NCBI GenBank assembly: GCA_944382785.1
Contig: CALWNO010000022.1
Coordinates: 1-43,083 of the forward strand
Direction: 5' to 3'
DNA length: 43,083 nucleotides
DNA from: an uncultured Gemmiger sp.
Lineage (GTDB): Bacteria > Bacillota > Clostridia > Oscillospirales > Ruminococcaceae
Notes under the pieces: generated by a model
Seen by the model: the letters and a program-made list of their open reading frames with translations, nothing else
Database searches by the model: none
Told to the model about the DNA's origin: nothing
Position numbers and translations under genes: made by a program
Shown: piece after piece, positions 1,550 through 23,151 of the stretch
How the letters are laid out: every line of letters starts with the position of its first letter
Numbering within the stretch: position 1 is the first letter of the stretch

Positions 1550-2211
1550 TGTGGATGGAAGAATATGAAGCCTTGAATGCAACGGAAAAATCAGAGTTCC
1601 GCCGCCTTGCCAACGCGCTGCTCTCCCGCACCTATTTACTGCGCAATGTCTATGATGATCAGAAAAAAATGATGGATCTGAACAGTGATTATCGTACAGC
1701 GCGGCGCTTTTTCACGATTTTGCAGGGATACTTTTCTCTGGCGGGGTGGGACCTGTACCGGGACGATGAATATGGAGTGATCTATCTGCGCAATCAGCAA
1801 GGGAGCAACCGGGCCCGATTCAGCGCCTTCACCACGATGTTTCTGTACATGCTTCGCCTGATTTATGAGGAAAACCGGCAACAGGTGGAATTGCATCATG
1901 ATGTACGCACGGATACCTTTGCTGTCATCCACAAGATGAATGCTTTTGGGCTGCTGAAAGACGGACGTTCCACAGCCAAGGACCGGCTGGAAGCCCAGAA
2001 GACCCTGGTCCGGTATCAGGTGATCGCCAAAATCGATGGAGGATGGAAAACGGATGGCAACAAGTTGCTGATCTACCCGACCATTTTGTTTTTCCTGCCA
2101 AACAGTGAAATTGACGCCATGAGCCGGCAACTGCAGGAGATGCGCAAACAGTCTCAGCAAGAGGCGAGTGACCAAGAGGCAACAAGTGAGGAAGGGGAGG
2201 AATCCCTATGA
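1549..2211 (+). CDS. jetB: Wadjet protein JetB (KITE/MukE-like subunit)
   Basis: This 220-residue protein lies between JetA and JetC, the position of JetB (DUF4194-type, MukE-like winged-helix dimer that binds the kleisin). Residues 1-190 alternate helices and short strands; the last 25 residues are a Glu/Gln-rich tail. The start ATG has a strong AAAAAGGAGG site 8 nt upstream, inside the end of jetA. The stop overlaps the jetC start as ATGA (2208-2211). No catalytic motif is visible, which fits a structural role. The call rests on size, order, coupling and general resemblance; I could not test the family match directly. Confidence 0.85.
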   Translation: MWMEEYEALNATEKSEFRRLANALLSRTYLLRNVYDDQKKMMDLNSDYRTARRFFTILQGYFSLAGWDLYRDDEYGVIYLRNQQGSNRARFSAFTTMFLYMLRLIYEENRQQVELHHDVRTDTFAVIHKMNAFGLLKDGRSTAKDRLEAQKTLVRYQVIAKIDGGWKTDGNKLLIYPTILFFLPNSEIDAMSRQLQEMRKQSQQEASDQEATSEEGEESL

Positions 2212-7533: not shown

Positions 7534-7590
7534 GGAAGAAACTATCGATTCTTGATGCAATCGTCCGGAATTTGTAAGGAGGTATCCGGA

Positions 7591-10500
7591 GTGAACGATA
7601 CCAACGCGGAACAAATCAAAGAGGCACCGGCCGTTCAGCTGATTCCGCAGCTGACGCCGGTGATCAACTATGCCTTACAGCAGAACCGGCTGCCGATTCT
7701 GCCCCAGGTCACCATTCAAAACCATACGGATACAGCGCTCTCCGGAGTAACCCTGACTGTGGAAAGCAACCCGGCCATGTTGCTGCCCTTTACACAGCAG
7801 ATCGAACAGATCCCGCCCCAATCCGAATATACGCTGCAGGGACTGGATGTACAGGCTGACCCCGCCTACCTGGCAGGACTGACTGAGCGGGTGCGGGGGC
7901 GTATTACGCTCAAGCTGACCTGTGGCACCGATACGCTGACGGAATACAGCACCGAAGCCACTGCCCTTGCTTTTGATGAATGGCACGGGACGGCCTTTTA
8001 TCCGGAATTGCTCTGCGCCTTTATCACGCCGAACCACCCGGAAATCACCAAATTGGCCGCACGGACGGCAGACTATCTGGGAAAATGGAGCGACAATCCC
8101 TCGCTGGATGCCTACCAGAGGAAAAATCCCAACCGGGTGCGGATGCAGGCTGCAGCGGCCTATGCGGCCCTGCAGGAACAGAACATCGTCTATTCGGTGC
8201 CGCCCGCCAGCTTTGAAGCCGTGGGGCAGCGCGTGAGGTTGTGTGATGCGGTGATCCAGCAAAAAATGGGCACCTGTCTGGACCTAACTTTATTGTATGC
8301 GGCTGTGCTGGAGGCCATCGGTCTGCATCCCTTGCTGATTTTGCAGCCAGGGCATATTTTTGCAGGGGTATGGCTGGAAGAGCAAACCTTCCCCGAAGCG
8401 GTGCAGGACGACCCCAGTCTGCTGACCAAGCGTCTGGCGGACGGCATCGGCGAGGTGGCCGTGGTGGAATGCACGGCCCTGACGGCGGGAAAATCCCTGG
8501 ACTTTGACGGGGCCTGTGCGGCAGCAGAGCGGGAACTAGCTGAACCCATTGAGTACATTATAGATGTGAGCCGTGCCCGCCTGAGCGGTATCCATCCATT
8601 GCCGCAGCGCATCCTGACCGATACCGGCTGGCATATCGAAACGGCGCAGCGGGATTCGTCGGAAGTTACCGGCGCCCCACAGGAACGCGCAGAAAACATC
8701 AAGGTGGAAGAGGGAACTGCGCCCAAACCGTCGGGGAAAATTGCCCAGTGGGAACGTAAACTGTTGGATCTGGGACTGCGCAACCCGCTGATTCATCTGC
8801 GCCTGACCAAGCGGGTCATCCCCATTCTGACCGATTCCCTGGGACGGTTGGAAGATGCCCTTTCCGACGGGGAGGAATACGGGATCGGTCCTCGCCCGGC
8901 GGAATGGGAACAGAAGGAGGCGGATCGACGCGACCCGGAACAATATGCAGATCTGGGACCGTATCAAGCGTTGATCCACTCGGAGTTTGAGAACCACCGG
9001 CTGCGTTCCGCCTTGAGCGCAGCGGAGCTTTCTCAGGCAATTACCGGTTTGTATCGGGCAGCGCGCACCTCCCTGGAGGAAAACGGCGCGAACACGCTGT
9101 ATCTGTCGCTGGGTCTTTTGCGCTGGTATGAAACCAAAACCAGTGAGCGGCCGCGCTACGCCCCCATTGTGTTGCTGCCGGTGGAGATCGTACGAAAATC
9201 CGCCAATAAAGGCTATGTCATTCGCCTGCGGGAGGAAGAACCCCAGCTGAACATTACCATGCTGGAAATGCTCAAACAGGATTTCGGCATCACAGTAAGC
9301 GGACTGGACCCTCTGCCCCAGGACGAGCACGGCGTGGATCTGCGCACCGTGTATACCACCCTGCGCCGGGCCGTGATGGCACAACCCCGGTGGGATGTGA
9401 TCGAAGCTGCCTTTCTAGGCATCTTCTCCTTTACCCAGTTTGTCATGTGGAACGATATGCGCAACCGGGTGGAAGATCTACAGCGCAACAAGATTGTGCG
9501 AAGCCTGGTGGAAGGAAAGCTGACCTGGACACCGCAGCCTATGCAGCCGGATGCAGCCGTGGATGAAAAGGGCGCTCTGCTGCCCATCCCGGCGGATGCG
9601 TCGCAGCTGTATGCCATTGAGCAGGCTGCGGCCGGGCAGAGTTTTGTGCTGCACGGACCTCCGGGAACTGGCAAGTCCCAGACCATCACGGCGCTGATTG
9701 CCAACGCCCTGGCGCAAGGGAAAACCGTGCTGTTTGTGGCGGAAAAGATGGCAGCACTTTCGGTGGTGCAGAACCGGCTGGAAAAAATTGGAATTGGTCC
9801 GTTCTGTCTGCAGCTGCATTCCAATAAATCCAAAAAGCGAGATGTGCTGGACCAGCTGAAAGCAGCCTCCGAAGTAGCCCATGGCCAGCCGCGGGAGTCC
9901 TGGAAAAAACAGGCCGAGGAAGCCGCCAAACTGCGCAGTGATCTGGATGCCTATGCCCACGCACTGCACAAACAGCGCGCCTGCGGTTCCAGCCTGTTTG
10001 AACTGGTCAGCCAGTACGAGGATTGTAAAACCGCCCCTAGTGTGGTGCAACTGCCGGCTTCTTTTGCAGCGGAAGCAACGGGGGACTCTCTGCGCGCCCA
10101 AGAGCGGCTGTTGGGACAGCTTACCGCCGCCTGCCAGGAAGTTGGCAATCCAGCGCAGCATCCGCTTCGCTGGATGGGACGCACCGATTATACCCTTTCC
10201 CTTGGAACAGACCTGGCGGCGGCACTGGAAAAGATGACCGCAGCGCTGGATGCGTTGGAACAGGCAGGAAATGCTCTGTCCGCCAAAACGGCCCGGTCCA
10301 CGCAAACGGTGGAAGACTGGAAACAGCTCTGTCAGCTGGCGGAAGTACTACTGGCATGGCAGCAGCTCCCCTGGGCAAAGTTGCCGGAAACAGCCGTGGA
10401 TGCAGACCATCTCACCCAAATGGAGCAATACGCCGATCATACAGAAGCGGCACGGAAGCTGGCAGCGACGCTGGCTGAGCGTTGGCAGGAAAGCTTTTTG

Positions 10501-13368
10501 CAGCAGGATGCAGCCACCTGGAAAAACGCCTGGACACAGGCAGGACTACAGTGGTTGATTCCCAGATGGTTTGCCCAAAACCGGATCTGCAAATTGCTGG
10601 CTCCCTATGCTAAGGAAATGGTCCAGCGGGATGCCTTGCAGGCCGATCTGGATACCCTGGCACAATGGCAGCAGGAAGAGCAGGCAGCGGAGACACTGCG
10701 AAACTCACTGCAGCCGCTGCTGCAGCTGCTGGAACCGGAGCAGACGGAGCCGGAAATGCTGCGTACGCTGGCGGCAACAACCCGACAGCTGAACGCCCGC
10801 TTGCAGGAACTTGGTGCGGGAAAGACAAAGTCTTTGCTCGCCCAGGATGAGGAAGCCACTGGACGCCTCTGCGAAGAACTGCTGCAGGCCCAGGCGCAGA
10901 AAAAAGCCGCCTGGCAGGGGCTGAAGCCGCTGCTTTGCCACACCCAGGGATTTGCCTCGCAAACCCCGCCAGTAATGCGGGAAAACATCCGGATTATGCT
11001 GGAACACCTGGACACCGCAAAGGACTGGTGTGTGTGGAGCCAGACCTGCGAAACTGCGCGGGAGGCGGGCATGGAGCCGCTGGCCGAGGCTTTGTGCCAC
11101 GGTTTGCAGCCGGAACAAGCGGCACCCGTATGGCATCGCGCGGTTTCCATCGCACTGATTCTCTCGGTGGTGGAAAGCGAACCTGTTCTGCGGCAGTTCC
11201 GCGGCAGTGTGTTCAATGAGACCATCCGCCAGTTCAAGGAGCTGGATGCCCATCTGACCGAATTGGCCCGGACCGAAATCTACTGCCGTCTGGCGGCCCA
11301 GGTGCCGGACTTTACTCAGGCAGCAGCCAACAGTTCCGAGGTGGGCATTCTGCAGCGCGCCATCCGCAGCGGTGGGCGCGGCATGAGCATCCGCCATCTG
11401 TTCGAAGAGATTCCTACCTTGCTGCCGAAACTTTGCCCTTGTATGCTGATGAGCCCCCTTTCGGTGGCGCAATATCTGGACCCCCACCAGCCGCCGTTTG
11501 ATCTGGTGGTGTTTGATGAGGCGTCCCAGCTTCCCACCTGCAAAGCGGTTGGCGTTCTGGCGCGGGGCAAAAACGCCGTGATCGTGGGAGATCCCAAACA
11601 GATGCCGCCCACCAGTTTCTTTACAAGCAATACAGTGGACGAGGAAAATCTGGAACATGAAGATCTGGAAAGCATTCTGGATGACTGCCTGGCATTGAAT
11701 ATGCCCCAGAGCCATCTGCTCTGGCATTACCGCAGCCGTCATGAGAGTTTGATCGCCTTCAGCAACCGGGAGTTCTACGACAACAAACTGTATACTTTCC
11801 CGTCGGCGGATGACCGGCAGAGCCGTGTGCGGCTGATCCATGTGGACGGCTGGTTTGACCGCGGCAAGACGCGCCAGAATCTGGCGGAGGCGCAGGCGGT
11901 TGTGAAAGAACTGTCCCGGCGGGCCCATGACCCGCAGCAGGCGGGATATAGCGTGGGCGTTGTCACTTTCAATGTGCAGCAGCAAACGCTGATCAGCGAT
12001 CTGTTGGATGAAGCCTGCAAAACCGATTCCCAGCTGGAAAGCTGGGCCTTTGACGCTGCGGAGCCGCTGTTCATCAAAAACCTGGAGAATGTGCAGGGCG
12101 ACGAGCGGGATGTCATCCTCTTTTCCATTGGATACGGACCGGACAAGCAGGGTAAGATGACGATGAATTTTGGACCTCTGAACCGGGAAGGCGGCTGGCG
12201 CCGTCTGAACGTGGCGGTTTCCCGTGCAAGGAGAGAGATGGTCGTTTTTGCTACCCTGCGGCCGGAACAGATCAACTTGTCCGGTACTTCCGCAAAGGGC
12301 GTGGCGGCCCTCAAAGACTTTCTCAACTACGCAGCGGACGGAAGTCTGCAGGAAACGGCAGTTTCCGCCACGGAAAGCCACACGGTCCACGGAATCGCGC
12401 GGGATATCTGCAACGAACTGGCAAAGAACGGCTGGAAAACCCACTGCATGGTGGGCCATTCTCAGTACCGCCTGGATATCGGCGTGATTGACCCGGCTCA
12501 TCCGGGACAGTATCTCCTGGGAATCCTTCTGGACGGAAACACCTACCGGGATGCCCGTACCACCCGTGACCGGGAGCTGGCACAGGAAGCTGTATTGGAA
12601 GGCCTTGGATGGGAGCTGCATCGGATCTGGACGATGGACTGGCTGGAAAGCCGCAAGAAAGAACTGAACCGCCTGTTGGAGCATCTGCAGGCACTGAAAA
12701 ACAAACCGCACACCGCGCCAACGCTCCCTGCGGCAGAACCGGCGCCGGTGCGGCTGGCCAATAAACCGGATCTTGTGCAAGCTCCGGCAAAGAAAGCTGC
12801 CCAGCCGCCGATCTACCGTGCGACGCGGCTTCCTGCGTATGCGCTGGATGCAGATGCCTTCCTGGAACCTCAGAATCAGAAACGAATCATCCGGGCGCTG
12901 GCTGATGTTCTGGAACGGGAAGCACCCATCCGGGAAAGTCTGCTGATCCGCCGTGTGACCCAAAGCTTTGGCATTGCCCGTGCAGGGTCCCGCATTCAGA
13001 GGTATCTTGTACAGATGCTTTCTGCGGCAAAGCTGCAGACCACAACGCAGAATGGGGAGCGCTTTTATTGGACGCCCAAACAAAATCCCGACCACTATGA
13101 AATATACCGTACGGCCGGAGAAGGCGACAATAAACGGGATGCGCGGGATCTTCCGCAGCAGGAAATTGCCAATGCGGCTGTAGCTGTTTTGCAGAATCAG
13201 ATTGGCCTTCCGGAAGAGGACCTTGTGCGGGAAACGGCCCGCCTGCTGGGCTATACCCGGCTGGGCACTTCGGTAAAGCCTGCTATGGAAGCCGGCATTG
13301 CCTATGGGCAGCAAAAGGGAATCCTTTGCCAGTCCCGTCCGGGGTATTACACCTTGGCAGATTCATAA
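7591..13368 (+). CDS. DUF4011-type SF1 helicase-nuclease (Hhe-like defence protein)
   Basis: This giant 1925-residue protein has several modules. Residues about 1-130 are beta-rich. A transglutaminase-like stretch follows, with Cys near 229 (TCLDLTLLYA) and His near 254 (PGHIFAGVWL). A DUF4011-type region spans roughly 390-640. The SF1 (UPF1/AAA_11-12-like) helicase has Walker A GPPGTGKSQT at about 689 and a DEAS box (VVFDEASQLP) near 1308. A Vsr/MTES-type nuclease-like domain lies near 1595-1700 (QYRLDIGVIDP), and a DUF3320-like tail near 1770-1830. Proteins of this make-up, such as Hhe, act as single-gene phage-defence systems. I choose GTG 7591 because AAGGAGG lies 8 nt upstream; the ORF is open further upstream to 7552. 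Domain borders are approximate. Confidence 0.85.
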   Translation: MNDTNAEQIKEAPAVQLIPQLTPVINYALQQNRLPILPQVTIQNHTDTALSGVTLTVESNPAMLLPFTQQIEQIPPQSEYTLQGLDVQADPAYLAGLTERVRGRITLKLTCGTDTLTEYSTEATALAFDEWHGTAFYPELLCAFITPNHPEITKLAARTADYLGKWSDNPSLDAYQRKNPNRVRMQAAAAYAALQEQNIVYSVPPASFEAVGQRVRLCDAVIQQKMGTCLDLTLLYAAVLEAIGLHPLLILQPGHIFAGVWLEEQTFPEAVQDDPSLLTKRLADGIGEVAVVECTALTAGKSLDFDGACAAAERELAEPIEYIIDVSRARLSGIHPLPQRILTDTGWHIETAQRDSSEVTGAPQERAENIKVEEGTAPKPSGKIAQWERKLLDLGLRNPLIHLRLTKRVIPILTDSLGRLEDALSDGEEYGIGPRPAEWEQKEADRRDPEQYADLGPYQALIHSEFENHRLRSALSAAELSQAITGLYRAARTSLEENGANTLYLSLGLLRWYETKTSERPRYAPIVLLPVEIVRKSANKGYVIRLREEEPQLNITMLEMLKQDFGITVSGLDPLPQDEHGVDLRTVYTTLRRAVMAQPRWDVIEAAFLGIFSFTQFVMWNDMRNRVEDLQRNKIVRSLVEGKLTWTPQPMQPDAAVDEKGALLPIPADASQLYAIEQAAAGQSFVLHGPPGTGKSQTITALIANALAQGKTVLFVAEKMAALSVVQNRLEKIGIGPFCLQLHSNKSKKRDVLDQLKAASEVAHGQPRESWKKQAEEAAKLRSDLDAYAHALHKQRACGSSLFELVSQYEDCKTAPSVVQLPASFAAEATGDSLRAQERLLGQLTAACQEVGNPAQHPLRWMGRTDYTLSLGTDLAAALEKMTAALDALEQAGNALSAKTARSTQTVEDWKQLCQLAEVLLAWQQLPWAKLPETAVDADHLTQMEQYADHTEAARKLAATLAERWQESFLQQDAATWKNAWTQAGLQWLIPRWFAQNRICKLLAPYAKEMVQRDALQADLDTLAQWQQEEQAAETLRNSLQPLLQLLEPEQTEPEMLRTLAATTRQLNARLQELGAGKTKSLLAQDEEATGRLCEELLQAQAQKKAAWQGLKPLLCHTQGFASQTPPVMRENIRIMLEHLDTAKDWCVWSQTCETAREAGMEPLAEALCHGLQPEQAAPVWHRAVSIALILSVVESEPVLRQFRGSVFNETIRQFKELDAHLTELARTEIYCRLAAQVPDFTQAAANSSEVGILQRAIRSGGRGMSIRHLFEEIPTLLPKLCPCMLMSPLSVAQYLDPHQPPFDLVVFDEASQLPTCKAVGVLARGKNAVIVGDPKQMPPTSFFTSNTVDEENLEHEDLESILDDCLALNMPQSHLLWHYRSRHESLIAFSNREFYDNKLYTFPSADDRQSRVRLIHVDGWFDRGKTRQNLAEAQAVVKELSRRAHDPQQAGYSVGVVTFNVQQQTLISDLLDEACKTDSQLESWAFDAAEPLFIKNLENVQGDERDVILFSIGYGPDKQGKMTMNFGPLNREGGWRRLNVAVSRARREMVVFATLRPEQINLSGTSAKGVAALKDFLNYAADGSLQETAVSATESHTVHGIARDICNELAKNGWKTHCMVGHSQYRLDIGVIDPAHPGQYLLGILLDGNTYRDARTTRDRELAQEAVLEGLGWELHRIWTMDWLESRKKELNRLLEHLQALKNKPHTAPTLPAAEPAPVRLANKPDLVQAPAKKAAQPPIYRATRLPAYALDADAFLEPQNQKRIIRALADVLEREAPIRESLLIRRVTQSFGIARAGSRIQRYLVQMLSAAKLQTTTQNGERFYWTPKQNPDHYEIYRTAGEGDNKRDARDLPQQEIANAAVAVLQNQIGLPEEDLVRETARLLGYTRLGTSVKPAMEAGIAYGQQKGILCQSRPGYYTLADS

Positions 13369-13392
13369 TTTTCAGGTCTAATTCCTTTACCG

Positions 13393-13428
13393 AAAAAGTC
13401 ACCGTTCAAAAATGAACGGTGACTTTTT
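13393..13428. terminator. Bidirectional terminator between convergent defence genes
   Basis: A 16-bp stem (13393-13408 with 13413-13428) closes a 4-nt loop. It starts with AAAAA and ends with TTTTT, so it forms an intrinsic terminator on both strands. It lies between the end of the helicase gene (+) and the end of hsdR (-), exactly where one is needed. Confidence 0.9.
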
Positions 13429-13480
13429 ATATATAGAGTAAATAATTTGTCGACACGCCCATACACAAGCAGCCAAATCT

Positions 13481-16400
13481 TCACGCCGCCGCGTTGGCGT
13501 TGATGCTGTCGATGGCGTGTTTGACTTTCGCCCAGAGGGACAGGTCGGTGAAAACCTCCACCACGCTGCCCTGGTCGGTGAAGGGCGGCTCCTGCAGCAC
13601 AGACAGGTCCTTCATCACACCGTTCTTGACGATGTACTCCACGATCTGGTTGACAAAATAGATCTGGCGGCTGTCCAGGTTCGCCCCGGCCAGGTATTCC
13701 GCAAAGGCGTTCTTGGCGGCGTTCATGTCCATGCCCACGATCTCCCGCACAAACTCGCCCAGGGGTTTCTGGCCGCATTCCGCCTCGTAGTCCTGGCGGG
13801 TGCCCACATCGGACCATAGGATTTTTTCCAGCTCGGCCACGTCCTGTTCGGTCAGGGGGATGTTGGAGCGCAGTTTGGCCACGGCCACGTTGTCCTGGTG
13901 CTGGCGCAGATAAAACTCCGCCTTGGCCTTGTAGTTTTTCAGGTCGTCGTTTTCCAGGTCGGATTCCTTCCATTCCACCGAGAGCAGATCATCGGTGAAG
14001 TTGGTCAGGTAGGGAGTCACGCCCCGGGGCAGATACTTCATCAGGTCGCGCAGGGATTTTCGGATGTGTTCAAACTCGTTGATACCCGCGTTTTCCAGAT
14101 AGTCGGTGTGCAGGATCTTCTCGATCAGATCCGACTGTTCCCGGATCTCCGGGATGTTGGCCACCCCGGCCACAGCTGTCACCTTTTTGCGCAGGTCCTT
14201 GCGGGCGCGGGTGTAGGTTTTGCCCACCAGATAGGCCAGTTCGATGCCGTACATGAGGGCGTCGAACCGCACGGCGCTGGCCTCATCCGCATCGGGCAGA
14301 ATCAGCGGGGCCACTTCCTCTTTCAGGTCCAGGGTGTCCTCATAGGTGAGGGCCAGATACCCCTGGGGCTCGCTGAACTTTTCCACATACCGCAGATGCT
14401 GGCGCACGGCGAAGTTTTCCCGGTCCAGCTCCCGGGCCTTGGCCAGCATTTCCTCCACCAGAGCCTGGCGGAAGGGAATCAGCTCCTCGGTCTGGTAGGC
14501 CAGGTCCTGCAATTTGAAGATAATCTGTGCTTTCAGAGAAAAAATGGCGCTTTGCAGGGGCATCTGGTTGGCGCCGGCCCGCTCCTTCTTCATGCGGAAG
14601 AACTCAAAGTTGCCGCACAGGTCGAAGGTGTAGAATTTGTCCTTGTCCTTGCCGTCCATCAGCCCCGGGCACAGGCGGGTGCCGCGGCCGATCATCTGCC
14701 AGAATTTGGCCTTGCTCATCACCTTTTTGAAGAACACCAGGTTCAGCACTTCGGGCACATCGATGCCGGTGTCCAGCATATCCACCGAGATGGCGATCTG
14801 GGGCAGCTTCCCGGCGTCGGAAAATTCATCGATGGCGCTCTGGGCGTAGGTCATATAGTTGTCGATGACCTTGGCGTACCCGGACAGGTGGGGGTACTGC
14901 TTGTTAAAGACGTCCCGGATTGTTTCGGCGTGGCGGTGGTTCTTGGCAAAGATGATGGTCTTGCCCAGCTTTTCGCCGTAGTCTATTTTCAGCCCGTGGG
15001 TCATCAGCAGGTCGAGGGCCTTGCGGATGGTATCCTCGTTGAAGAGCCATTCGTTGAGGGCGGAGGACTGGATGCGTTCGGGGAGTTCGCCGTTTTCGTC
15101 GGTGAAGGTAGCCTCGTACTCGGCCTTTTCCTCGGGGGATAGCTCGTCGTAGACGATGCCCTGTTCCAGGAATTTGAGTTTGCTTTCCACCGTGCGGTAG
15201 TCCACGAGAAACCCGTCCTTGACGGCCTGGGCCAGCTCATAGCCGTAGGTGGGCACGCCGTTCTGCAGCTCAAAGACTTCGTAGGTATTTTTGTCGATCT
15301 CGTCCTTGGGGGTGGCGGTCAGGCCGACCAGCGGGGCGTCGAAGTAGTTGAAGATGTCCCGGTATTTGTTGTAGATGGAGCGGTGGGCCTCGTCGCAGAT
15401 GACCAGATCGAAGTGGCCCACCGTGAAGAGTTTGCCCTCCTCGTCGTGGACGGTGTCGATGCAGTTCATCATGGTCTGGTAGGTGGAAAAGACACAGTGG
15501 GCGGCGGCGTTGTCCTTTTCCTCGCAGAGGTTGGTGACCGACAGATCGGGCAGCAGGTTCACAACGCTGCGTTTGGCCTGGGTGACCAGAGAATTGCGGT
15601 CGGCCAGAAAGAGGATGTTTTTCACCCAGCCACGGCGCAGCAGCACATCGCACAGGGCAATGACGGTGCGGGTCTTGCCGGAGCCGGTGGCCATGACCAG
15701 CAGGGCCTTGCGGCGGTTCTGGGCAAGGGCCTGGCAGGTGGCCTTGATGGCGCCCTCCTGGTACCAGCGCCCGGCGATGTTGCGGTCCACCCGGATGTTG
15801 TCCAGTGGTGTGCGCATGGTGCGCAGATTGAAGAGTTTTTCCAGGTCCCGCCGGGAATAGAAGGCAGCCACCCGACGCTCGGGGTAGGTGCCATCTTCCA
15901 GTCGAGTATCAAAGCCGTTGGTCAGAAAGATGACCGGGCGGCGTCCGCATTGCTTTTCCAAAAGGTCGGCGTAGAGTTTGGCCTGCTGGCGGCCCCGGGC
16001 GGGGTCCACACAAGTTTTCTTCGCCTCAATGACGGCCAGGGGGCGGTGGGCGTCGTCGTAGAGCACATAGTCGGCAAAGCCCTCCCCTGCCCGGTTGGGC
16101 ATACCGGGGATGGGGACTTCGTTGAGCCAGTTTTTGCCCTCCACCCAGCCGGCATCCCGCAGCATGGCGTCAATGTAGAGCTTGCGGGTCTTGTACTCGG
16201 ACAGATCCAGCGGTTTGGGGGTATAGCCGGGCTGCTGGGCAGCGCGCCGTTCGGACAGTTCCTTGCGCAGGGCCTGGTTTTCCGCCATCAGGGCGTCCAG
16301 GTCCACCTCGGGCGCCGCAGGCACCGGCCCGCCGGGCTGCCGGGAGAGCAGGGCGGGGTTGAAGGTGCCGGGGGTGTAGTGGGTTCCGTAACAGCAGGCC

Positions 16401-16765
16401 ACAAAGTCCATGAAGTACCAGAGGTTTTCCAGGCAGAGGGCGGCCTCCTCGGGGGTGACGGGCTTGCGGTCGGCGTGGTTGGCGGAGTTGCCGGTCTGGC
16501 GTATGTAGTTCAGACGCCGCCACAGGTCCTTGTCCACAATGTCGCGGAATTCCTCGGCGTTCAGCAGGCTGACCAGCCGATCGTCATAGGGAGTAACCAG
16601 CCCCGAATCCACCGAGTACATCCATTTGACCGCAAACTCCATGGCCCGGCGACAGTTCACCGCGCAGGCCGCCGGGTCGATGGCATAGATTTTTTCCGCC
16701 GCCACCGCTGCCTGGGCAAAGGAGGCAAACTGTGGCTCGGAAAGGAGAAAATCGAAGTTGGTCAT
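13481..16765 (-). CDS. hsdR: Type I restriction enzyme R subunit (HsdR)
   Basis: This 1094-residue protein has an N-terminal DUF4145-like region (1-150). The HSDR_N nuclease domain has the PD-(D/E)XK residues D232, E247 and K249 (ADYVLYD then VIEAKK). The SF2 translocase has Walker A ATGSGKT (359-365), DEAH box (458-461), LTATPKD and a C-terminal helicase lobe with IGRGTRL. HsdR translocates and cuts DNA that the HsdM/HsdS complex finds unmethylated. It is the last gene of the operon and ends about 50 nt before the shared terminator. GC content is high, like hsdM and unlike the three genes just upstream. The start lies 6 nt after the stop of the DUF4238-like gene, so the two are probably co-translated. 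Confidence 0.95.
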   Translation of the reverse strand: MTNFDFLLSEPQFASFAQAAVAAEKIYAIDPAACAVNCRRAMEFAVKWMYSVDSGLVTPYDDRLVSLLNAEEFRDIVDKDLWRRLNYIRQTGNSANHADRKPVTPEEAALCLENLWYFMDFVACCYGTHYTPGTFNPALLSRQPGGPVPAAPEVDLDALMAENQALRKELSERRAAQQPGYTPKPLDLSEYKTRKLYIDAMLRDAGWVEGKNWLNEVPIPGMPNRAGEGFADYVLYDDAHRPLAVIEAKKTCVDPARGRQQAKLYADLLEKQCGRRPVIFLTNGFDTRLEDGTYPERRVAAFYSRRDLEKLFNLRTMRTPLDNIRVDRNIAGRWYQEGAIKATCQALAQNRRKALLVMATGSGKTRTVIALCDVLLRRGWVKNILFLADRNSLVTQAKRSVVNLLPDLSVTNLCEEKDNAAAHCVFSTYQTMMNCIDTVHDEEGKLFTVGHFDLVICDEAHRSIYNKYRDIFNYFDAPLVGLTATPKDEIDKNTYEVFELQNGVPTYGYELAQAVKDGFLVDYRTVESKLKFLEQGIVYDELSPEEKAEYEATFTDENGELPERIQSSALNEWLFNEDTIRKALDLLMTHGLKIDYGEKLGKTIIFAKNHRHAETIRDVFNKQYPHLSGYAKVIDNYMTYAQSAIDEFSDAGKLPQIAISVDMLDTGIDVPEVLNLVFFKKVMSKAKFWQMIGRGTRLCPGLMDGKDKDKFYTFDLCGNFEFFRMKKERAGANQMPLQSAIFSLKAQIIFKLQDLAYQTEELIPFRQALVEEMLAKARELDRENFAVRQHLRYVEKFSEPQGYLALTYEDTLDLKEEVAPLILPDADEASAVRFDALMYGIELAYLVGKTYTRARKDLRKKVTAVAGVANIPEIREQSDLIEKILHTDYLENAGINEFEHIRKSLRDLMKYLPRGVTPYLTNFTDDLLSVEWKESDLENDDLKNYKAKAEFYLRQHQDNVAVAKLRSNIPLTEQDVAELEKILWSDVGTRQDYEAECGQKPLGEFVREIVGMDMNAAKNAFAEYLAGANLDSRQIYFVNQIVEYIVKNGVMKDLSVLQEPPFTDQGSVVEVFTDLSLWAKVKHAIDSINANAAA

Positions 16766-16771
16766 GGTGGG

Positions 16772-17590
16772 TCACATCCATTCTCGAGTAGTACGAATTG
16801 CAATAGCATCATGTGAAGAAAAGAAAGGGACTTGCCTGACCAAAGATAGAAGATACCTTTCGTTAGGTTCTGTTTTGGCCAAGGCAACTATACATTTTTT
16901 ATCATGTTGCTCTATACGGCACAGATTCAAATAATTTATGTCCTTATACTTGGCACAGAAGTAGCCACAGTCATCGGCATTCGACACCCAGAGCAAGAAA
17001 CGCCTTTCGCTAATAGGGAACATGAATCCAAAATGTCCTAATGCTTCCTTGTTTTTATCAGGGCAAATGAACAGAAAAACCATGCCGTCTGTAAGAATAA
17101 GTGGAGGGCAAATATATTGTGGATGAACTTCTACCAGTAGCAAATTAGAGGGAAATCTAATGCCCGTATCAAAAACATGGGATAATATAAGGTCAGAGTC
17201 GTCTTCTGCTCTTTTACTGCTTCGCTGAAGCAAAAAGTTTTGCAGAAGAAGTTTTGATATGAGCTTCTTCTTTTTCTCGTTCTCTATGACAACGCTATTA
17301 AACTGTGCCTCTACAAGACCACAAGAACCCAGTATTTTTTGTCTCGCAATAGGCCAATGGACGAGTTCTTTAAGTAATGGTGCTAGCTTGTTTTCGTAGC
17401 TATCTCCACTTAGAACATTTTCTAAATTCTGCCCCCAGGGTTTATACCTCGAAAATAGATTTTTTATATTTCGGATCTCTGCCGTTGCTGTGGAAAAATC
17501 ATATTGTAAGAAGGTACGTGGGCCATCTTTAGCTGTAAAATTTCTAGAAATCATTTGAGACAGATAATGCATATTTTTGGTTTTGCTCAT
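16772..17590 (-). CDS. DUF4238-like protein, cargo gene of the type I R-M operon
   Basis: The 272-residue protein opens with a motif (KNMHYLSQMISRNFTAKDG) that resembles the HYVPQFYLRNF start of DUF4238 proteins. It ends with an ERYLLS-type segment also seen in that family. No catalytic residues are obvious. DUF4238 proteins have been reported in defence islands, but their activity is not known to me. I place the start at 17590, with GGAAG 8 nt upstream; an in-frame ATG at 17605 is the alternative but has no ribosome binding site. The gene is much more AT-rich than hsdR and hsdM and has poor codon match to them, suggesting recent transfer. It lies 63 nt after the gene upstream and 6 nt before hsdR. 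Confidence 0.65.
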   Translation of the reverse strand: MSKTKNMHYLSQMISRNFTAKDGPRTFLQYDFSTATAEIRNIKNLFSRYKPWGQNLENVLSGDSYENKLAPLLKELVHWPIARQKILGSCGLVEAQFNSVVIENEKKKKLISKLLLQNFLLQRSSKRAEDDSDLILSHVFDTGIRFPSNLLLVEVHPQYICPPLILTDGMVFLFICPDKNKEALGHFGFMFPISERRFLLWVSNADDCGYFCAKYKDINYLNLCRIEQHDKKCIVALAKTEPNERYLLSLVRQVPFFSSHDAIAIRTTREWM

Positions 17591-17653
17591 ATTATACACT
17601 TCCATCAAAAATCTATCACAAAGCTAGCATCCTTCCAAACAAAGATCAGCTTA

Positions 17654-18598
17654 CTAATTATCACCTACTGCTGTTGCTATGTATTTGCGGAGCGCTTCTT
17701 CAATTTTCTTTTTGCCTGCAATCGTATTTTCGTAAAAAATGGTTCTATAGCCGCTCACGTCAAAGGGCAAATTGGTTCTTTTTTGCCTGTCTGCAAGAAG
17801 AATTGTCGTTTTTCTTAATGCATGCGCATATCCCAGTTCATAAAAAACATTTGGGTTATCCATTGTAATATCACATATTATAACAGAGGCCGCCTGAATT
17901 TCTCGAATAATATCATTTATAATAGGTGTAGAAGCATAATTTTCATCAGCTCTGATAGCTTCCAAGCCTAATTTTTCAGATTGTGGCTTGATAACATCCT
18001 GATACAAATCATCAAACGCCTGTTCAAATTTCATCACACAAAATACACTAGGCTTTTTTGTCTGCATTTTAATGTTCTCTATGCGCGCTTTTGCTCCATT
18101 ACAGACATATAAACCACAAACACCTGCAAAATCATTCGTGGCATCCATATATTCCAGAACCTTGATATCATTCAAATATAATACTATGGTTTTATTTCCG
18201 ACTTCCACACAAATCGAGTATTTAGTTTTATCAAAAATCGCATTTGGCCTGCCGCCATAAGCGGGCGTCCCCCAGTTTTTCCCACTAAGGAAATCAACAG
18301 ACCATCCACAAACTTGGTTTCTGATTCCAACTTGATAAAAGGATAATTCACTATTCTGATTTTTGAAATTCAGTTCGATGCCTGCGCGGGTATCTGGAAA
18401 AACCGCATCAAAGGATATTTCAAAAGATATCTTTCCTTCACGGAAATCGCCTAAAAGAATGTCTCCAAACATGGAATGCTTTTCCCCGATATTTGTTGTC
18501 GGATTAACCAATCCCACTTGTTGCCCCTCGAAATCAAGGATAGTAGGTTGTTTTTTAGATTCCTTAAAGGTTCCACTATTAACAATATACTTTAGCAC
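17654..18598 (-). CDS. Jelly-roll-like plus deoxyribosyltransferase/TIR-like fusion protein
   Basis: This 314-residue, two-part protein is a putative defence effector. Residues about 40-180 are beta-rich and resemble concanavalin-like/DUF1080-type jelly-roll domains (REGKISFEISFDAVF, KTIVLYLNDIKVLEY). Residues 184-314 form a Rossmann-like domain with the hallmark CDITMDNPNVFYELGYAHAL (D243, N248, N250, E254), as in nucleoside 2-deoxyribosyltransferases and TIR-like NAD-cleaving domains, where the Glu is catalytic. A nucleotide-consuming effector joined to a sensor is a reasonable inference. The start is GTG with AAGGTGA just upstream. It is AT-rich and sits 36 nt after the HEPN-like gene. A complete catalytic site cannot be proved by eye. 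Confidence 0.7.
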   Translation of the reverse strand: MLKYIVNSGTFKESKKQPTILDFEGQQVGLVNPTTNIGEKHSMFGDILLGDFREGKISFEISFDAVFPDTRAGIELNFKNQNSELSFYQVGIRNQVCGWSVDFLSGKNWGTPAYGGRPNAIFDKTKYSICVEVGNKTIVLYLNDIKVLEYMDATNDFAGVCGLYVCNGAKARIENIKMQTKKPSVFCVMKFEQAFDDLYQDVIKPQSEKLGLEAIRADENYASTPIINDIIREIQAASVIICDITMDNPNVFYELGYAHALRKTTILLADRQKRTNLPFDVSGYRTIFYENTIAGKKKIEEALRKYIATAVGDN

Positions 18599-18634
18599 AA
18601 TATCACCTTCTTTAATGGATGTCAGCGAGGTGTG

Positions 18635-19501
18635 TTATTCTACCGGCGGCAAGACCGTAAGGCCAAGTGCAATTTTGCTATCGTGGTCGCCAAATTTATG
18701 CCATTCCTTGTTTTGAGTAGCTGTACAAAACAGAAATGCTTTTTGTGACACATTTTTTGGTTCTAATGAAATAACAAATTTATTGGAATTGTAAAACTGA
18801 GAACAATCCGTTTTTAGCATACTCCACTTAATAGTATATTCCTCTTTTCTAAAAGAAGAGTCAACTTCAACCTCTACGGAGTACTTGTCTCCGCATTGAA
18901 GATTTTGGGGAACGTTGAAAGTCACACCAAGCGAGTTCTTTTCTTTATCTCCTACATAAAATACGTTTCCCAGCGAATCAGAAACCCGAATGATTTGAGG
19001 TACATTAAACATCTTTTCTTCGCCCCGTGCCTTATAATATTTTTTTAACCCTTCGACAAAGTCTTGAGAATAACATATTGCTTGTTCAGCTTGACGCACT
19101 GAAATCGGATTTGCATGCGATACCGCATTTCGAATGGGAACCAGCCGATTCAAGAATTCAAAAGCTTCGGTATTACCTTGAGGATACACATAATCTAATG
19201 CCTTCTTAAAATATTTTTCATACCAATCTTTTTTGCAAAGAAAGTAAATAAGTTGATCGATAAATAAAGCATCTACTGGTCGGGGGAAACGTTCTGGTTC
19301 TTTCTTTCTCATATTGGAAACATGTTCACGAATTTCTTTTTTTACCAGGGACTCACCGTTAGGCAAGCACTTCTCTATGTAATTTTCTCCATAATTCTCT
19401 ACCATTTTTTCCTGTACTAAGCGCCTTCCCCACATCTCAACAGCTTCTATATTCTGTCTGCAAAAAGTGCGAAGCTCTTCTTGTGTATATTTGTAGTACA
19501 T
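18635..19501 (-). CDS. HEPN-like protein with RNxxxH motif, cargo gene in the R-M operon
   Basis: The 288-residue protein has a helical N-terminal region (1-160) with IRNAVSHA at 123-130. R124-N125-x3-H129 fits the RX4-6H ribonuclease motif of HEPN domains, and the flanking helices resemble Swt1-like or MAE_28990-like HEPN domains. Residues about 165-288 are beta-rich and of unknown fold, perhaps an Ig-like sensor domain. HEPN proteins commonly act as RNA-cutting toxins in abortive infection. The start has AGGTGA 4-5 nt upstream and lies 3 nt after the hsdS stop, so expression is tied to the R-M genes. The gene is AT-rich. Catalytic activity is inferred from the motif only. Confidence 0.7.
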   Translation of the reverse strand: MYYKYTQEELRTFCRQNIEAVEMWGRRLVQEKMVENYGENYIEKCLPNGESLVKKEIREHVSNMRKKEPERFPRPVDALFIDQLIYFLCKKDWYEKYFKKALDYVYPQGNTEAFEFLNRLVPIRNAVSHANPISVRQAEQAICYSQDFVEGLKKYYKARGEEKMFNVPQIIRVSDSLGNVFYVGDKEKNSLGVTFNVPQNLQCGDKYSVEVEVDSSFRKEEYTIKWSMLKTDCSQFYNSNKFVISLEPKNVSQKAFLFCTATQNKEWHKFGDHDSKIALGLTVLPPVE

Positions 19502-19504
19502 GGT

Positions 19505-20626
19505 TCACCTGCCCCTAAAATACTGTTGCATAAGGGAGCTTTTTAATACTTCCAACATGTTAATGCTTGCCGCAATTGTTTCCTTCAACTTTGTCATGTT
19601 ATTTACAAAATTTCCCAACTGTATTTGCTGAGACATAGGAGGAACTAAAATTTGTAATATTCGCAAATCTGACAAATTAATCTGTTGAAGAGTAGCTCCT
19701 CTGGTGTGTTCTTGGATATAGTTTTGGCTTTCGTCTGTGTTGAGATATGTATTTAGATAGACGGGATTGATTTTATTGCGATCGTATCGAACAACAGCAA
19801 TACCCCGCGTCACATTCATACCAGTACAATCATGGTTTGATAAGGCGGTAATGCCAGTTGTCCCTCGAACAGTAATTAATAACTCGTCACCTGTCAACTC
19901 GGTTTTTTTAAAGGCATCACCAATTGACCGATCAATATGCTTGATGGATTCCATAGAGATTTTTCCATCCACTAAATCTACCGGGCGGATGACACCCATA
20001 TCACCGGTTCCATCATTGCCTGGCTGTACAATTCCATAGGATAACCCTGCGCCCTCGACAATAAGGTCAATGAGAGGTTTGCGTGGATAATTACAATCCC
20101 CGAACATCTCCACAAAGCGGGATTTGACCAGCAGGTCCAGCTTGTCCAGCTGGGCGCGGCGTTGGGCAATCAGGTCGGTGACCTTGTCCAAAACGGCGGC
20201 AATGCGGCGCTGTTCTTCTATGGGTGGCAGGTAAAACGGCAAAGCATCGAATACAGGTTTTGTCAGATGCTTCATCGTGGCACCGTGCGCTGATGTGGCG
20301 GCCTTTTCCAGAATTTCACCTGCTTGATGGACAAAAAAACTTTTATCTACTTTGGCCTTATCAAAAACAACTTTGAAGATGTGCTGGTTTAAAACCGCTT
20401 TCTCGCCATGCCAGATATATACGCCCAAACTTGCCGACCACGAGATTAAAACATCGCCATTATTGACTTCATATTTTGGCGCGTATTTTCCATTGTATCG
20501 GTTTGTTTGGTAGGAGTTCCCGCTTAAATCTTGGATGCGAATAATGGGAACACCCTCATCAGACCAATCTTCCGGCTTAAACGGGTAGCCGTTAATATAA
20601 GTCGCAATTTCCCCCAACTTCGCCAT
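19505..20626 (-). CDS. hsdS: Type I restriction specificity subunit (HsdS)
   Basis: The 373-residue protein contains two target recognition domains (about 1-130 and 190-330), each followed by a conserved coiled-coil spacer: PPIEEQRRIAAVLDKVTDLI in the middle and PPMSQQIQLGNFV near the end. It picks the DNA sequence that HsdM methylates and HsdR defends. Composition is mosaic: the central spacer is GC-rich like hsdM, while both recognition domains, especially the second (below about 20060), are AT-rich. That is the usual sign of domain exchange. The start ATG overlaps the hsdM stop (TGATG) and follows GGAGGGG. A GTG three bases upstream is the alternative start. Confidence 0.93.
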   Translation of the reverse strand: MAKLGEIATYINGYPFKPEDWSDEGVPIIRIQDLSGNSYQTNRYNGKYAPKYEVNNGDVLISWSASLGVYIWHGEKAVLNQHIFKVVFDKAKVDKSFFVHQAGEILEKAATSAHGATMKHLTKPVFDALPFYLPPIEEQRRIAAVLDKVTDLIAQRRAQLDKLDLLVKSRFVEMFGDCNYPRKPLIDLIVEGAGLSYGIVQPGNDGTGDMGVIRPVDLVDGKISMESIKHIDRSIGDAFKKTELTGDELLITVRGTTGITALSNHDCTGMNVTRGIAVVRYDRNKINPVYLNTYLNTDESQNYIQEHTRGATLQQINLSDLRILQILVPPMSQQIQLGNFVNNMTKLKETIAASINMLEVLKSSLMQQYFRGR

Positions 20627-22122
20627 CACAGCATCCCCTCCAGTTCCGCCAGGCCCTGGGTGATCTGCATTTCCAGCTCGTGCAGATCGGCCAGAATCTC
20701 GGTCGTAGGCGGGTACTCCACCGGCACATACTCCACCTGCTTGTACTTGTTGATGGAAAGGTCATACCCGTTTTGGGCGATCTCCGCCTTGGGCACCAGA
20801 AAGGACTGCTCGGTGCGGGCGCGGTCGGTTTCCGCCGCCCGGTTGTGGAACCGGGCAATAATATCGGGGATGTCGTTCTCCTTGACTTCGGTGCGCTTGT
20901 CGTCCAGGGAAAAACCGTCCGCCTTCATATCATAGAACCACACCTCATCGGTGCCGCCGTGGCCTGTCTTGGTGAACACCAGCACCGCCGTGGACACCCC
21001 CGCGTAGGGCTTGAACACCCCGCTGGGCATGGAGATCACCGCCTCCAGACGGTGGTTCTCCACAATCTCCTTGCGGATGGCCTTGTGTGCCGTGGAGGAA
21101 CCGAACAGCACCCCGTCCGGCACGATGCAGGCACACCGGCCGCCCACTTTCAGCATCCGCAGAAACAGCGCCAGGAACAAAAGCTCGGTCTTTTTGGTCT
21201 TGCACAGTTTGAGCAGATCGGTGGAAACAATGTCGGCGTCCAGGCTGCCTTTGAAGGGCGGATTGGCCAGAATCAGGGAATAGGCCTCCCGGTCGGTGTT
21301 CTGGTCCGAAAGGCTGTCCCGGTACTCAATGGACGGGTTATCAATGCCATGGGTCATCATGTTCATGGCGCCGATGCGCAGCATGGTGCGGTCCATATCG
21401 TAGCCGTGGAACATCCGGTTCATGTAATGGTCCTTGTGGGCCCGGTCAAAGAAGATCTCTTTTTTGTAGTTCTCTTTCAGGTAGTGCCCGGCCTCCACCA
21501 GAAAGCCGCCCGTGCCGCAGGCCGGGTCGCAGATGACCTCATCGGGCTGGGGGTCCATCATCTCCACCATCATACGGATGATATGCCGCGGCGTGCGGAA
21601 CTGGCCGTTCACCCCCGCGGTGGACAGCTTGGAAAGCAGATATTCGTAAATATCCCCCCGTACATCGGTGCTGCTGGCCTGGCGGGACTGCTCATAAATC
21701 TCATCCATCGCCGTGACAACCTTGTCCAGCATCAGCGGCGTGGGAATCTTGAAAATCGCATCCCCCATGTATTTGGCGTAGGCGCTGTCCTTGTCGCCGT
21801 GCAGCCCCTTGATGAAGGGAAACACCCATTCCTGCATCACCGTGTACATCTGCTGGGCCGGAAAGTCCCGGAACACCGACCATTTCAGCTGCTCGCCGGG
21901 GATACTCCGCTCCCCGATGGTGACCTTGTCCGCAAAAATGCTCTTGTGGGGCAGGCCCAGCATGGCGCTCTCCTTGGCGCGCTGGTTGTCCGCCGCGTCC
22001 AGGTCGTGGATAAACATCAGGTAGGTCATCTGCTCCACCACGTCCAGCGGATTGGTGATGCCCCCGGTCCAGAAAATTTCCCACAGGCTGTTGATTTTAT
22101 TCTTCAGTTCGTTGTCCAGCAT
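20626..22122 (-). CDS. hsdM: Type I N6-adenine DNA methyltransferase subunit (HsdM)
   Basis: The 498-residue protein has an N-terminal helical HsdM_N region (1-150) and a catalytic domain. S-adenosylmethionine motif I DPACGTGGF is at 199-207 and motif IV NPPF at 287-290, the N6-adenine pattern. It methylates host DNA at the site chosen by HsdS and is required for restriction by HsdR. The start ATG has AAGGAG 6-7 nt upstream. It is the first gene of the operon, behind the promoter at 22251-22279. The stop overlaps the hsdS start. All key residues are present, so it should be active. Confidence 0.97.
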   Translation of the reverse strand: MLDNELKNKINSLWEIFWTGGITNPLDVVEQMTYLMFIHDLDAADNQRAKESAMLGLPHKSIFADKVTIGERSIPGEQLKWSVFRDFPAQQMYTVMQEWVFPFIKGLHGDKDSAYAKYMGDAIFKIPTPLMLDKVVTAMDEIYEQSRQASSTDVRGDIYEYLLSKLSTAGVNGQFRTPRHIIRMMVEMMDPQPDEVICDPACGTGGFLVEAGHYLKENYKKEIFFDRAHKDHYMNRMFHGYDMDRTMLRIGAMNMMTHGIDNPSIEYRDSLSDQNTDREAYSLILANPPFKGSLDADIVSTDLLKLCKTKKTELLFLALFLRMLKVGGRCACIVPDGVLFGSSTAHKAIRKEIVENHRLEAVISMPSGVFKPYAGVSTAVLVFTKTGHGGTDEVWFYDMKADGFSLDDKRTEVKENDIPDIIARFHNRAAETDRARTEQSFLVPKAEIAQNGYDLSINKYKQVEYVPVEYPPTTEILADLHELEMQITQGLAELEGML

Positions 22123-22250
22123 ACCGTACTCCTTGTTTGGATTCTGCGCGGGAAAGGGTCTGCCCTCCCTGCGCCGTGCGCCGCCTGCCTATCCCTTCGG
22201 CGCCATCCCGCCCCCCCGGCCACCGGCCCGGTGGAAGTATATATAAGTAT

Positions 22251-22279
22251 AGTCTAACAAGCCCGCAATAGCCCGTCAA
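22251..22279 (-). promoter_or_regulatory. Promoter of the type I R-M operon
   Basis: Read on the - strand, TTGACG (22274-22279), a 17-nt spacer and TAGACT (22251-22256) form a sigma-A promoter, leaving a leader of about 120 nt before hsdM. A second option, TTGCGG-17-TATATA, overlaps it. I see no clear operator in the C-rich leader (22123-22245). Confidence 0.55.
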
Positions 22280-22335
22280 GGTTCTGCCGTTTGCCGCTTT
22301 GCCGAAGGAAAAACGCTGGCGCGGGGGACCTCCCG

Positions 22336-23151
22336 TCACAACCCTTCGACAAACTTTCCGATCAGCTCATTCACCTCGTCCGGTGCATCGGTGTTGGCAT
22401 TGTGCCCAGCACCGGGGATCCACACCAGCGGGATGCCGGTGTTTTTGTGCCAGGCTTTGTTGTATCGGATGCAGGAACCGGCATGATCTTTTTCTCCGCA
22501 GATCAGCAGCGCCGGACAGGGAATTTTGTAGGGAAGGTCGGCTTCCATGGCTTCGGCCAGCATCCGCATCCCATGGCCTGACAATCTGGCATACCGTTCC
22601 TGGTCGCCGTCGTAGGTCATCATCATTTCGTGCATCAGGGCCTGTCCATAGGAGGAGGTGGCCACCCCTTTCGACCCGGTTTTCAGTAGGGACTTCCACG
22701 GGTAATGGCGATAGACCGGCTCCATCCGTTTCAGCAGCCACAGTTCGATGCCCGTCACATACTTTCGCTGCAGAGGGGCCGAATCAATGGCCACAAAGCC
22801 CTTCAATTTCTGAGGAAACAATTCCGCATAGGCCTGTCCTACATAGCCGCCCATAGACTGCCCCACGATCACCGGCTGGCACAGAGCTTCCCGGCAGAGA
22901 ATCTCGTCCAGCCATCTTGCCTTGTCCATCAGGGAAAAGGTCAGCCGGAAGGGCCAGGAAGCGGCATGGCCGGGGGCGTCCCATACCAGCAGATTGTATT
23001 TCCCTTCGAAACAGGCAATCTGTTTGTCAAACAGCCGGTGGTCAGCGGTCAGCCCCGGCAGAAAAACCAGGGTGATGGCTGTGGGGCCGCAGTCACGATT
23101 CACCCAGTAATGAATCTTGCCACAGGGCGTTTCGTAGAGCTTTTCCTGCAT
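22336..23151 (-). CDS. Alpha/beta-hydrolase fold protein
   Basis: A 271-residue alpha/beta hydrolase. The nucleophile elbow GQSMGG carries Ser99. A catalytic acid lies in LICGEKDHAG and the histidine in PGAGHNAN near the C-terminus, so the Ser-Asp-His triad is complete. The oxyanion region LPGLTADHR follows strand 3. The substrate is unknown; esterase, peptidase or C-C hydrolase are possible. I place the start at 23151 because AGGAGGTG is correctly spaced before it; the in-frame GTG at 23160 falls inside that site. The gene lies upstream of hsdM in the same direction but 213 nt away, and hsdM has its own promoter, so the two need not be linked in function. Confidence 0.9.
   Translation of the reverse strand: MQEKLYETPCGKIHYWVNRDCGPTAITLVFLPGLTADHRLFDKQIACFEGKYNLLVWDAPGHAASWPFRLTFSLMDKARWLDEILCREALCQPVIVGQSMGGYVGQAYAELFPQKLKGFVAIDSAPLQRKYVTGIELWLLKRMEPVYRHYPWKSLLKTGSKGVATSSYGQALMHEMMMTYDGDQERYARLSGHGMRMLAEAMEADLPYKIPCPALLICGEKDHAGSCIRYNKAWHKNTGIPLVWIPGAGHNANTDAPDEVNELIGKFVEGL

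Follow-up and report, generated by a model that had tools for sequence, protein, structure and literature searches.

Variable gene content at the hsdS-hsdR junction of a type I restriction-modification operon family, with a candidate three-gene defence cargo in an uncultured Gemmiger sp.

A 43,083-nucleotide stretch of DNA from an uncultured Gemmiger sp. (contig CALWNO010000022.1, positions 1 to 43,083; hereafter the window) carries a type I restriction-modification (R-M) operon with three additional genes, A, B and C, between hsdS and hsdR. Comparison with 30 related operons reveals that gene content at this junction varies from operon to operon. It seems rather probable that the hsdS-hsdR junction is a variable cargo slot and that the trio is the cargo of this particular genome, providing additional defence effectors beside restriction. 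Defence genes embedded between hsd genes have been described before in other bacteria; what merits attention here is the cargo density and turnover within this hsd family, together with the scars seen in four relatives.

The hsdS-hsdR junction in the window and in related operons

The operon lies on the minus strand in the order hsdM, hsdS, A, B, C, hsdR, and every frame is intact, close-packed and co-directional. hsdM (20626-22122) encodes a methyltransferase subunit of 498 aa (PADLOC MTase_I, E 1.3e-183), hsdS (19505-20629) a specificity subunit of 374 aa (Specificity_I, E 5.5e-73), and hsdR (13481-16765) a restriction subunit of 1094 aa with DUF4145 and a helicase core (REase_I, E 4.2e-154). 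The slot between the last two spans 2739 bp (16766-19504, minus strand) and contains gene A (18635-19501, 288 aa), gene B (17654-18598, 314 aa) and gene C (16772-17608, 278 aa from a TTG, or 272 aa from the ATG at 17590), extra co-directional genes packed closely between hsd genes, that is, embedded cargo. The spacing is 3 nt for hsdS-A, 36 nt for A-B, 63 nt for B-C and 6 nt for C-hsdR, where the B-C value presumes that C starts at ATG 17590 and becomes 45 nt with TTG 17608. These coordinates and gaps, as well as the positions of R124, N125, H129 and E254 discussed below, agree with an earlier description made from the letters alone (the sequence-only reading).

The same reading held that A-C are far more AT-rich than hsdM and hsdR, and this is borne out. 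The GC content (in brackets, that of third codon positions) is 0.373 (0.332) for A, 0.372 (0.324) for B and 0.384 (0.362) for C vs. 0.587 (0.834) for hsdM and 0.602 (0.831) for hsdR, with 0.439 (0.459) for hsdS. The claim is refined in one respect: the AT-rich stretch starts inside hsdS, the 3' end of which drops to 0.35-0.36, while the other border is sharp, at the hsdR start. In 500 Markov resamples of the segment, the longest stop-free stretch was 155 aa as compared to the observed 278-314 aa; the three frames therefore exceed chance. Together, these observations support the view that A, B and C are compositionally foreign, embedded cargo. Promoter-like sites in the region 13300-22500 number 13 vs. 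9.1 (sd 3.0) from shuffles, giving no clear signal of an internal cargo promoter.

Relatives of hsdR, defined at E <= 1e-50 among 295 genomes of the order, amount to 37 matches in 35 genomes, the own genome included (36 matches in 34 others). The partial hsdR matches in G022, G075, G245 and G011 were excluded before counting, and 5' flanks were taken for 32 of the 36 non-own matches. In 30 of the 32 it was possible to locate the end of hsdS as well as the start of hsdR; L025 and L038 are contig-edge flanks, each with a gene before hsdR. Genes of the relatives are mechanical open reading frames (cargo of at least 60 aa), with hsdS and hsdM ends placed by hand, and the interval ends in L041, L046, L048 and L049 are the start of the hsdR match and not a checked start codon. 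Measured in this way, the hsdS-hsdR interval is at least 300 bp in 28 of 30 operons (median 1313, maximum 4370 bp), whereas the hsdM-hsdS gap reaches this length in 8 of 26 (median -4). Non-hsd cargo occupies the slot in 27 of the 30; of the other three, two are empty (L041, L049) and one, L021, has nothing but a putative tyrosine recombinase and a second hsdS. The AT bias recurs as well: the interval has a lower GC content than the initial 1000 bp of hsdR in 28/28 cases (mean 0.348 vs. 0.514), and hsdS is AT-richer than hsdR in 26/26 operons. A recombinase-like gene (recognised by eye) followed by a second, partial hsdS is present at L021:7860-9963 and L045:8391-10014, an arrangement that would suit a switch of specificity through inversion or exchange.

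The content of the slot is diverse. The 62 frames of at least 60 aa from the 32 flanks and A, B, C (65 proteins) form 51 blastp families. Once two recombinases, two frames from hsdR fragments and two second hsdS genes are set aside, 59 proteins remain, A-C among them; these fall into 48 families, and a shared family is seen in only 14 of 435 locus pairs. The four nearest operons (L018, L019, L020 and L038, the last present in part on its contig) come from three genomes and have hsdR of 82-83% identity; no cargo family is common to any of these and the window, or to any two of the four.

A Pfam scan covered 50 of the 51 cargo proteins of at least 100 aa, the one left out (L044:980-1468) being 53% identical to the DUF559 protein of L035, and 21 of the 50 contain a family above cut-off. 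These families are AbiH (L027, L036, L044), DUF2971 (L033, L043, L047, L048), SIR2_2 (L023), FRG (L018), DUF6161 (L025), a Polbeta and NTase_sub_bind pair (L028, E 6.7e-15 and E 1.4e-27), HAD (L031), Trypsin_2 (L032), DUF2806 (L034), DUF559 (L035), SLFN_AlbA_2, DUF6602 and DUF4238 (all in L042, DUF4238 with E 8.7e-32), AAA_21 (L045) and DUF4062 (L047). When ten cargo proteins were compared singly with PADLOC (E <= 1e-4), four matched: PDC-S47 in L019, PDC-S25 and ThsA in L023, AbiZ in L025, and PDC-S31 in L033 (PDC, phage defence candidate). Counted as models and not as proteins, each of 147 PADLOC models has a match among the 51 cargo proteins. Among these assignments, AbiH, SIR2_2, DUF2971, Schlafen/AlbA, AAA_21, DUF4238 and the L028 pair by Pfam, with AbiZ and PDC-S25 by PADLOC, support the view that the same junction in relatives often holds defence-type genes. 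In L028 (1019-1724, minus strand), the nucleotidyltransferase and NTase-binding HEPN-type pair, an MNT-HEPN toxin-antitoxin, occupies the entire slot.

The edges of the slot are conserved. The hsdS product ends at or near MQ-x-x-F or IQ-x-x-F in 29 of 30 loci, often with GGTGA next, and hsdR mostly starts with MTNFDF or MPNFSF. Pieces of these two genes were found within the intervals of four relatives: three contain the N-terminus of hsdR (L018, 33 aa; L035, 68 aa; L047, 42 aa) and one the C-terminus of hsdS (L026, 37 aa). All four pieces sit between two cargo genes, with a 14-base overlap between the L026 piece and the end of the first gene. The hsdR piece of L047 continues directly into 16 bases that match the hsdS tail (QKALMQGYF), immediately ahead of the second cargo gene, and the locus looks as if a unit of hsdS end, cargo and hsdR had joined an older hsdR start. 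Recombination in the flanking hsd ends would leave hsd pieces of the kind seen in these four loci, and the scars suggest that homology between flanking hsd genes could be enough for cargo to move without a mobile element. The 20 bases immediately preceding hsdR match in full, which is trivial because the query contained them. Two weak matches, one in L029 (17 aa on the opposite strand, E 0.003) and one in L033 (17 nt, E 0.006), were not counted as scars, and neither were the hsdS matches in L021 and L045, which are their second hsdS.

Genes A, B and C

Gene B is the best characterised of the three. Its C-terminal domain (about residues 181-312), which includes E254, has a predicted fold likened to those of MilB (13.8), DNPH1 (13.6), RPS4 (12.5) and SPARTA (11.8). 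The protein matches the PADLOC TIR effector PDLC00733 with E 8.6e-14; the match to Pfam Nuc_deoxyrib_tr has E 5.2e-5, yet lies below the family cut-off. E254 is aligned with a Glu of BlsM, in a weak match (E 0.12). The fold and the conserved Glu place this domain in the TIR/nucleoside deoxyribosyltransferase-like superfamily, and the label TIR-like for B appears well supported at the level of sequence and predicted structure. B resembles the nucleoside monophosphate (NMP) N-glycosidases MilB, DNPH1 and BlsM and the TIR domains of RPS4 and SPARTA in the fold of its C-terminal half but differs from them in an additional N-terminal beta-rich part (about residues 1-180). The latter is weakly jelly-roll-like: Pfam 3keto-disac_hyd gives E 0.0038, below cut-off, the structure model of this part is of low confidence, and Foldseek rows for CBM66 and galectin-like proteins are a hint at most. 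With a TIR/NMP-glycosidase-type domain and a beta-rich putative sensor, B is a candidate nucleotide-cleaving effector.

Relatives of B were not found in viral contigs by a pattern scan, which, as with the other pattern scans made for A, B and C, detects close relatives only. Plasmid records matching B number 95, none across 80% of the protein, and among the 20 matches listed the similarity starts from residue 163 on. In 299 genomes of the phylum, B has matches in 12 other genomes, all but one from residue 156 on only. The single full-length relative among the 298 other phylum genomes is 35% identical (locus L050). In the 19.5 kb around it, neither A nor C nor any of the three hsd genes has a significant match (best E 0.50), so B can stand without A and C. 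A search of genome contigs with an alignment of B (A1) returned one locus, L051, whose contig is as long (122,649) as that of L004/L050 and which is probably the same. At L050:9148-10495 the B relative is preceded by a 130-aa gene with no Pfam match, and the two possibly form a two-gene unit. A frame about 4 kb upstream of this B relative resembles what we take to be an IS200/REP-type transposase.

Gene A has R124, N125 and H129 in place and thus shows the RNxxxH (Rx4-6H) catalytic motif of HEPN proteins. The HEPN label rests on this motif, the match to Pfam HEPN_Swt1 (E 0.1) being below cut-off. The motif is found in four of 58 cargo and window proteins (A, L020, L028 and L030) vs. 0.59 expected by shuffling, the carriers of L020 and L030 belonging to one family. 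The C-terminal part of A is devoid of a recognised domain, no ATPase domain above the Pfam cut-off was found in the protein, and its single-sequence structure model is unusable (predicted local distance difference test score 40.9). No relatives of A were detected in viral contigs, plasmids, phages or a scan of genome contigs, and among the 295 genomes of the order it occurs in its own genome only. A match in the 299 phylum genomes (E 0.0067, 57 residues, internal stop) was dismissed as chance. A HEPN-type domain may also reside in HsdR itself: residues 22-114, at the HsdR N-terminus, are DUF4145 (Pfam E 1.8e-13), a family listed, in the part of the source consulted, among HEPN families fused to restriction helicases (PMC3710099). 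The start of its coding region is what recurs as a scar in L018, L035 and L047.

Gene C matches Pfam DUF4238 (PF14022) with E 0.01 and 15.7 bits against a cut-off of 27, and its filing under this family was dropped. It gives no significant alignment (BLASTP E 0.20) with the true DUF4238 protein of L042. Relatives of C were found neither in plasmids, viral contigs and phages nor, beyond its own genome, among 245 genomes of the class; a match in the 299 phylum genomes (E 0.0046) to a 594-aa frame looking like a membrane protein was rejected. A single-gene DUF4238 system is described from P2-like phages (PMC9122126). C is linked to it by the weak match and by the true family member in the same slot, but differs in its own score below the cut-off and in the lack of alignment with the L042 protein. 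As to the domain labels of the sequence-only reading, the TIR-like part of B and the HEPN motif of A thus hold, whereas jelly-roll and DUF4238 stay below their cut-offs.

That reading also took the three genes for an embedded abortive-infection module. The foreign, embedded nature of the cargo and the presence of defence genes at the same junction are in line with this, while a single obligate three-gene system is not: the full-length relative of B lacks A, C and hsd neighbours, 14 of the 28 slots of at least 300 bp hold a single gene of at least 100 aa, and no second trio turned up among the genomes searched. The trio is indeed not a named system within the libraries searched, as no PADLOC model, PDC included, matches A or C at E <= 1e-4, and no report of it was found in searches of the open-licence PMC literature, only one of which coupled the R-M system with two of the domains.

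Proposed mechanism, alternatives and known systems

We assume that AT-rich modules, many of them defence genes, would move horizontally and be swapped in and out by recombination in the hsdS 3' and hsdR 5' ends, the cargo riding on transcription of the operon. The cargo proteins would act beside restriction, most likely not as a single machine guarded by the R-M complex. A could be a HEPN-type RNase; B would sense infection with its beta-rich N-terminal part and then cleave the N-glycosidic bond of a nucleotide (NMP, its deoxy form dNMP, or NAD+); and C may be a separate small defence protein. Phage protection by the trio and its independence of HsdR are what we infer. Should the slot operate in this way, the presence of this hsd family in a genome would mark untested defence genes at a predictable address.

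Several results weigh against this proposal. No Pfam family above cut-off was found in 29 of the 50 scanned cargo proteins, and six of the ten proteins compared singly with PADLOC (L026, L030, L034, L037, L039, L042) are unmatched at E <= 1e-4. The trypsin-like and HAD cargo are atypical for defence. A and C have no confirmed relatives from which their conservation could be judged. Extra sequence also occurs between hsdM and hsdS, where the gap is at least 300 bp in 8 of 26 operons (median -4), which indicates insertion at more than one junction, though some of these gaps may reflect misplaced hsdS starts. The interval GC correlates with the hsdR GC (Spearman 0.55), which makes one common foreign source for the cargo unlikely. 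The window itself shows no flanking-gene scar, and the route by which the trio arrived is one that we infer.

A more far-reaching version, which we put forward tentatively as one that may prove wrong, is that the junction is a dedicated platform for the capture of defence genes, with the conserved hsdS 3' and hsdR 5' ends serving as universal homology arms. Unrelated AT-rich modules would then be exchanged wholesale between species, truncated or fused hsd ends would be left between stacked modules, and the operon would be a site of turnover comparable to an integron or a prophage defence hotspot. The trio would be one undescribed combination among dozens.

It is unlikely that the R-M complex keeps A, and perhaps B, inactive in the manner of PrrC and that the toxins are freed once restriction is neutralised by a phage or the R-M proteins are lost, a trigger which the sequence-only reading offered as a possibility. 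The tight packing of A-C between hsdS and hsdR and the HEPN motif of A would fit such a guard. PrrC is associated with a type Ic R-M enzyme and becomes active when the phage peptide Stp neutralises the enzyme (PMC2610378), and in the sections consulted such a model is proposed for R-M-linked HEPN proteins generally (PMC3710099). The PrrC/EcoprrI locus likewise has a HEPN-type RNase inside a type I hsd locus (PMC2610378, PMC3710099), the RNase role of A being a predicted one; however, PrrC is a HEPN domain fused to an ABC ATPase, whereas A has no ATPase domain above cut-off and is accompanied by B and C, and A was accordingly rejected as a PrrC. HsdR proteins of 82-83% identity stand beside unrelated cargo, which is hard to fit with a specific cargo-HsdR contact and argues for cargo that works by itself. 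Furthermore, the protection conferred by TgvAB, which lies inside a type I R-M cluster of Vibrio cholerae VPI-2 (Vibrio pathogenicity island 2), kept a similar pattern in an HsdR nuclease mutant, according to the portion of the report consulted (PMC11411939). TgvAB is likewise an embedded defence system, of two genes, but it is a GmrSD-related type IV restriction system, and searches with A, B and C returned no domain of this kind.

Neutral or selfish passengers, accumulated as an AT-rich stretch in an operon tolerant of insertion and without a role in defence, are distinctly unlikely. The proteins without a Pfam family and the extra sequence between hsdM and hsdS, both noted above, would suit them, but the frames are intact, close-packed and co-directional, the intervals are mostly coding, and known anti-phage families recur in the slot. 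A toxin-antitoxin or addiction module that stabilises the operon, with one of the three proteins as toxin and another as antitoxin, is very unlikely: it is suggested by the complete MNT-HEPN pair in the slot of L028 and by the HEPN-like motif of A, but A, B and C gave no match to a nucleotidyltransferase or any other antitoxin-type family, the three are similar and rather large in size, and B has its full-length relative in a locus devoid of A and C. The trio was rejected as a cyclic oligonucleotide-based antiphage signalling system (CBASS), since no cyclase of the CD-NTase (cGAS/DncV-like nucleotidyltransferase) type is among the six operon genes, to which this search was confined within the genome.

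Payne et al. (2024 preprint) reportedly generalised embedded defence genes in a survey of guilt by embedding. Defence genes nested in other defence operons are treated under this term, as far as the sources were available (PMC12988326, PMC10855318). Several slot cargos resemble such candidates in matching PDC models; A and C differ in having none at E <= 1e-4, and B matches TIR effector models. A close parallel for the site is DarTG2, which is embedded between hsdS and hsdR in the RptR/RRDM island of enteropathogenic E. coli, a site termed a potential recombination hotspot in the portion consulted (PMC12255303). Defence genes thus occupy the same type I operon junction there, but the cargo and the host group differ, and the E. 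coli island is controlled by the RptR repressor, for which no search was made here; as compared to that work, the present survey concerns one hsd family in one order and adds the scars. In C. jejuni, which belongs to another phylum, type I loci likewise have extra genes at hsd junctions, described, in the text available, as rlo where they lie between hsdR and hsdS and as mlo where they lie between hsdS and hsdM (PMC5183652).

Other defence genes in the window

Two further defence loci are found in the window, both on the plus strand. A complete-looking Wadjet system (122-6807) comprises JetA (E 1.9e-100), a DUF4194 protein, an SbcC/SMC-like ATPase and JetD (E 4.6e-22); by their position, we take the DUF4194 protein to be JetB and the SbcC/SMC-like ATPase to be JetC. 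A giant protein with DUF4011, a superfamily 1 (SF1) helicase and an MTES_1575 nuclease (7552-13368) matches NCBIfam antiphage ProA with 2124.6 bits against a cut-off of 1500. The contig can be regarded as a defence island, since the Wadjet system, the ProA-like protein and the R-M operon occur on it together.

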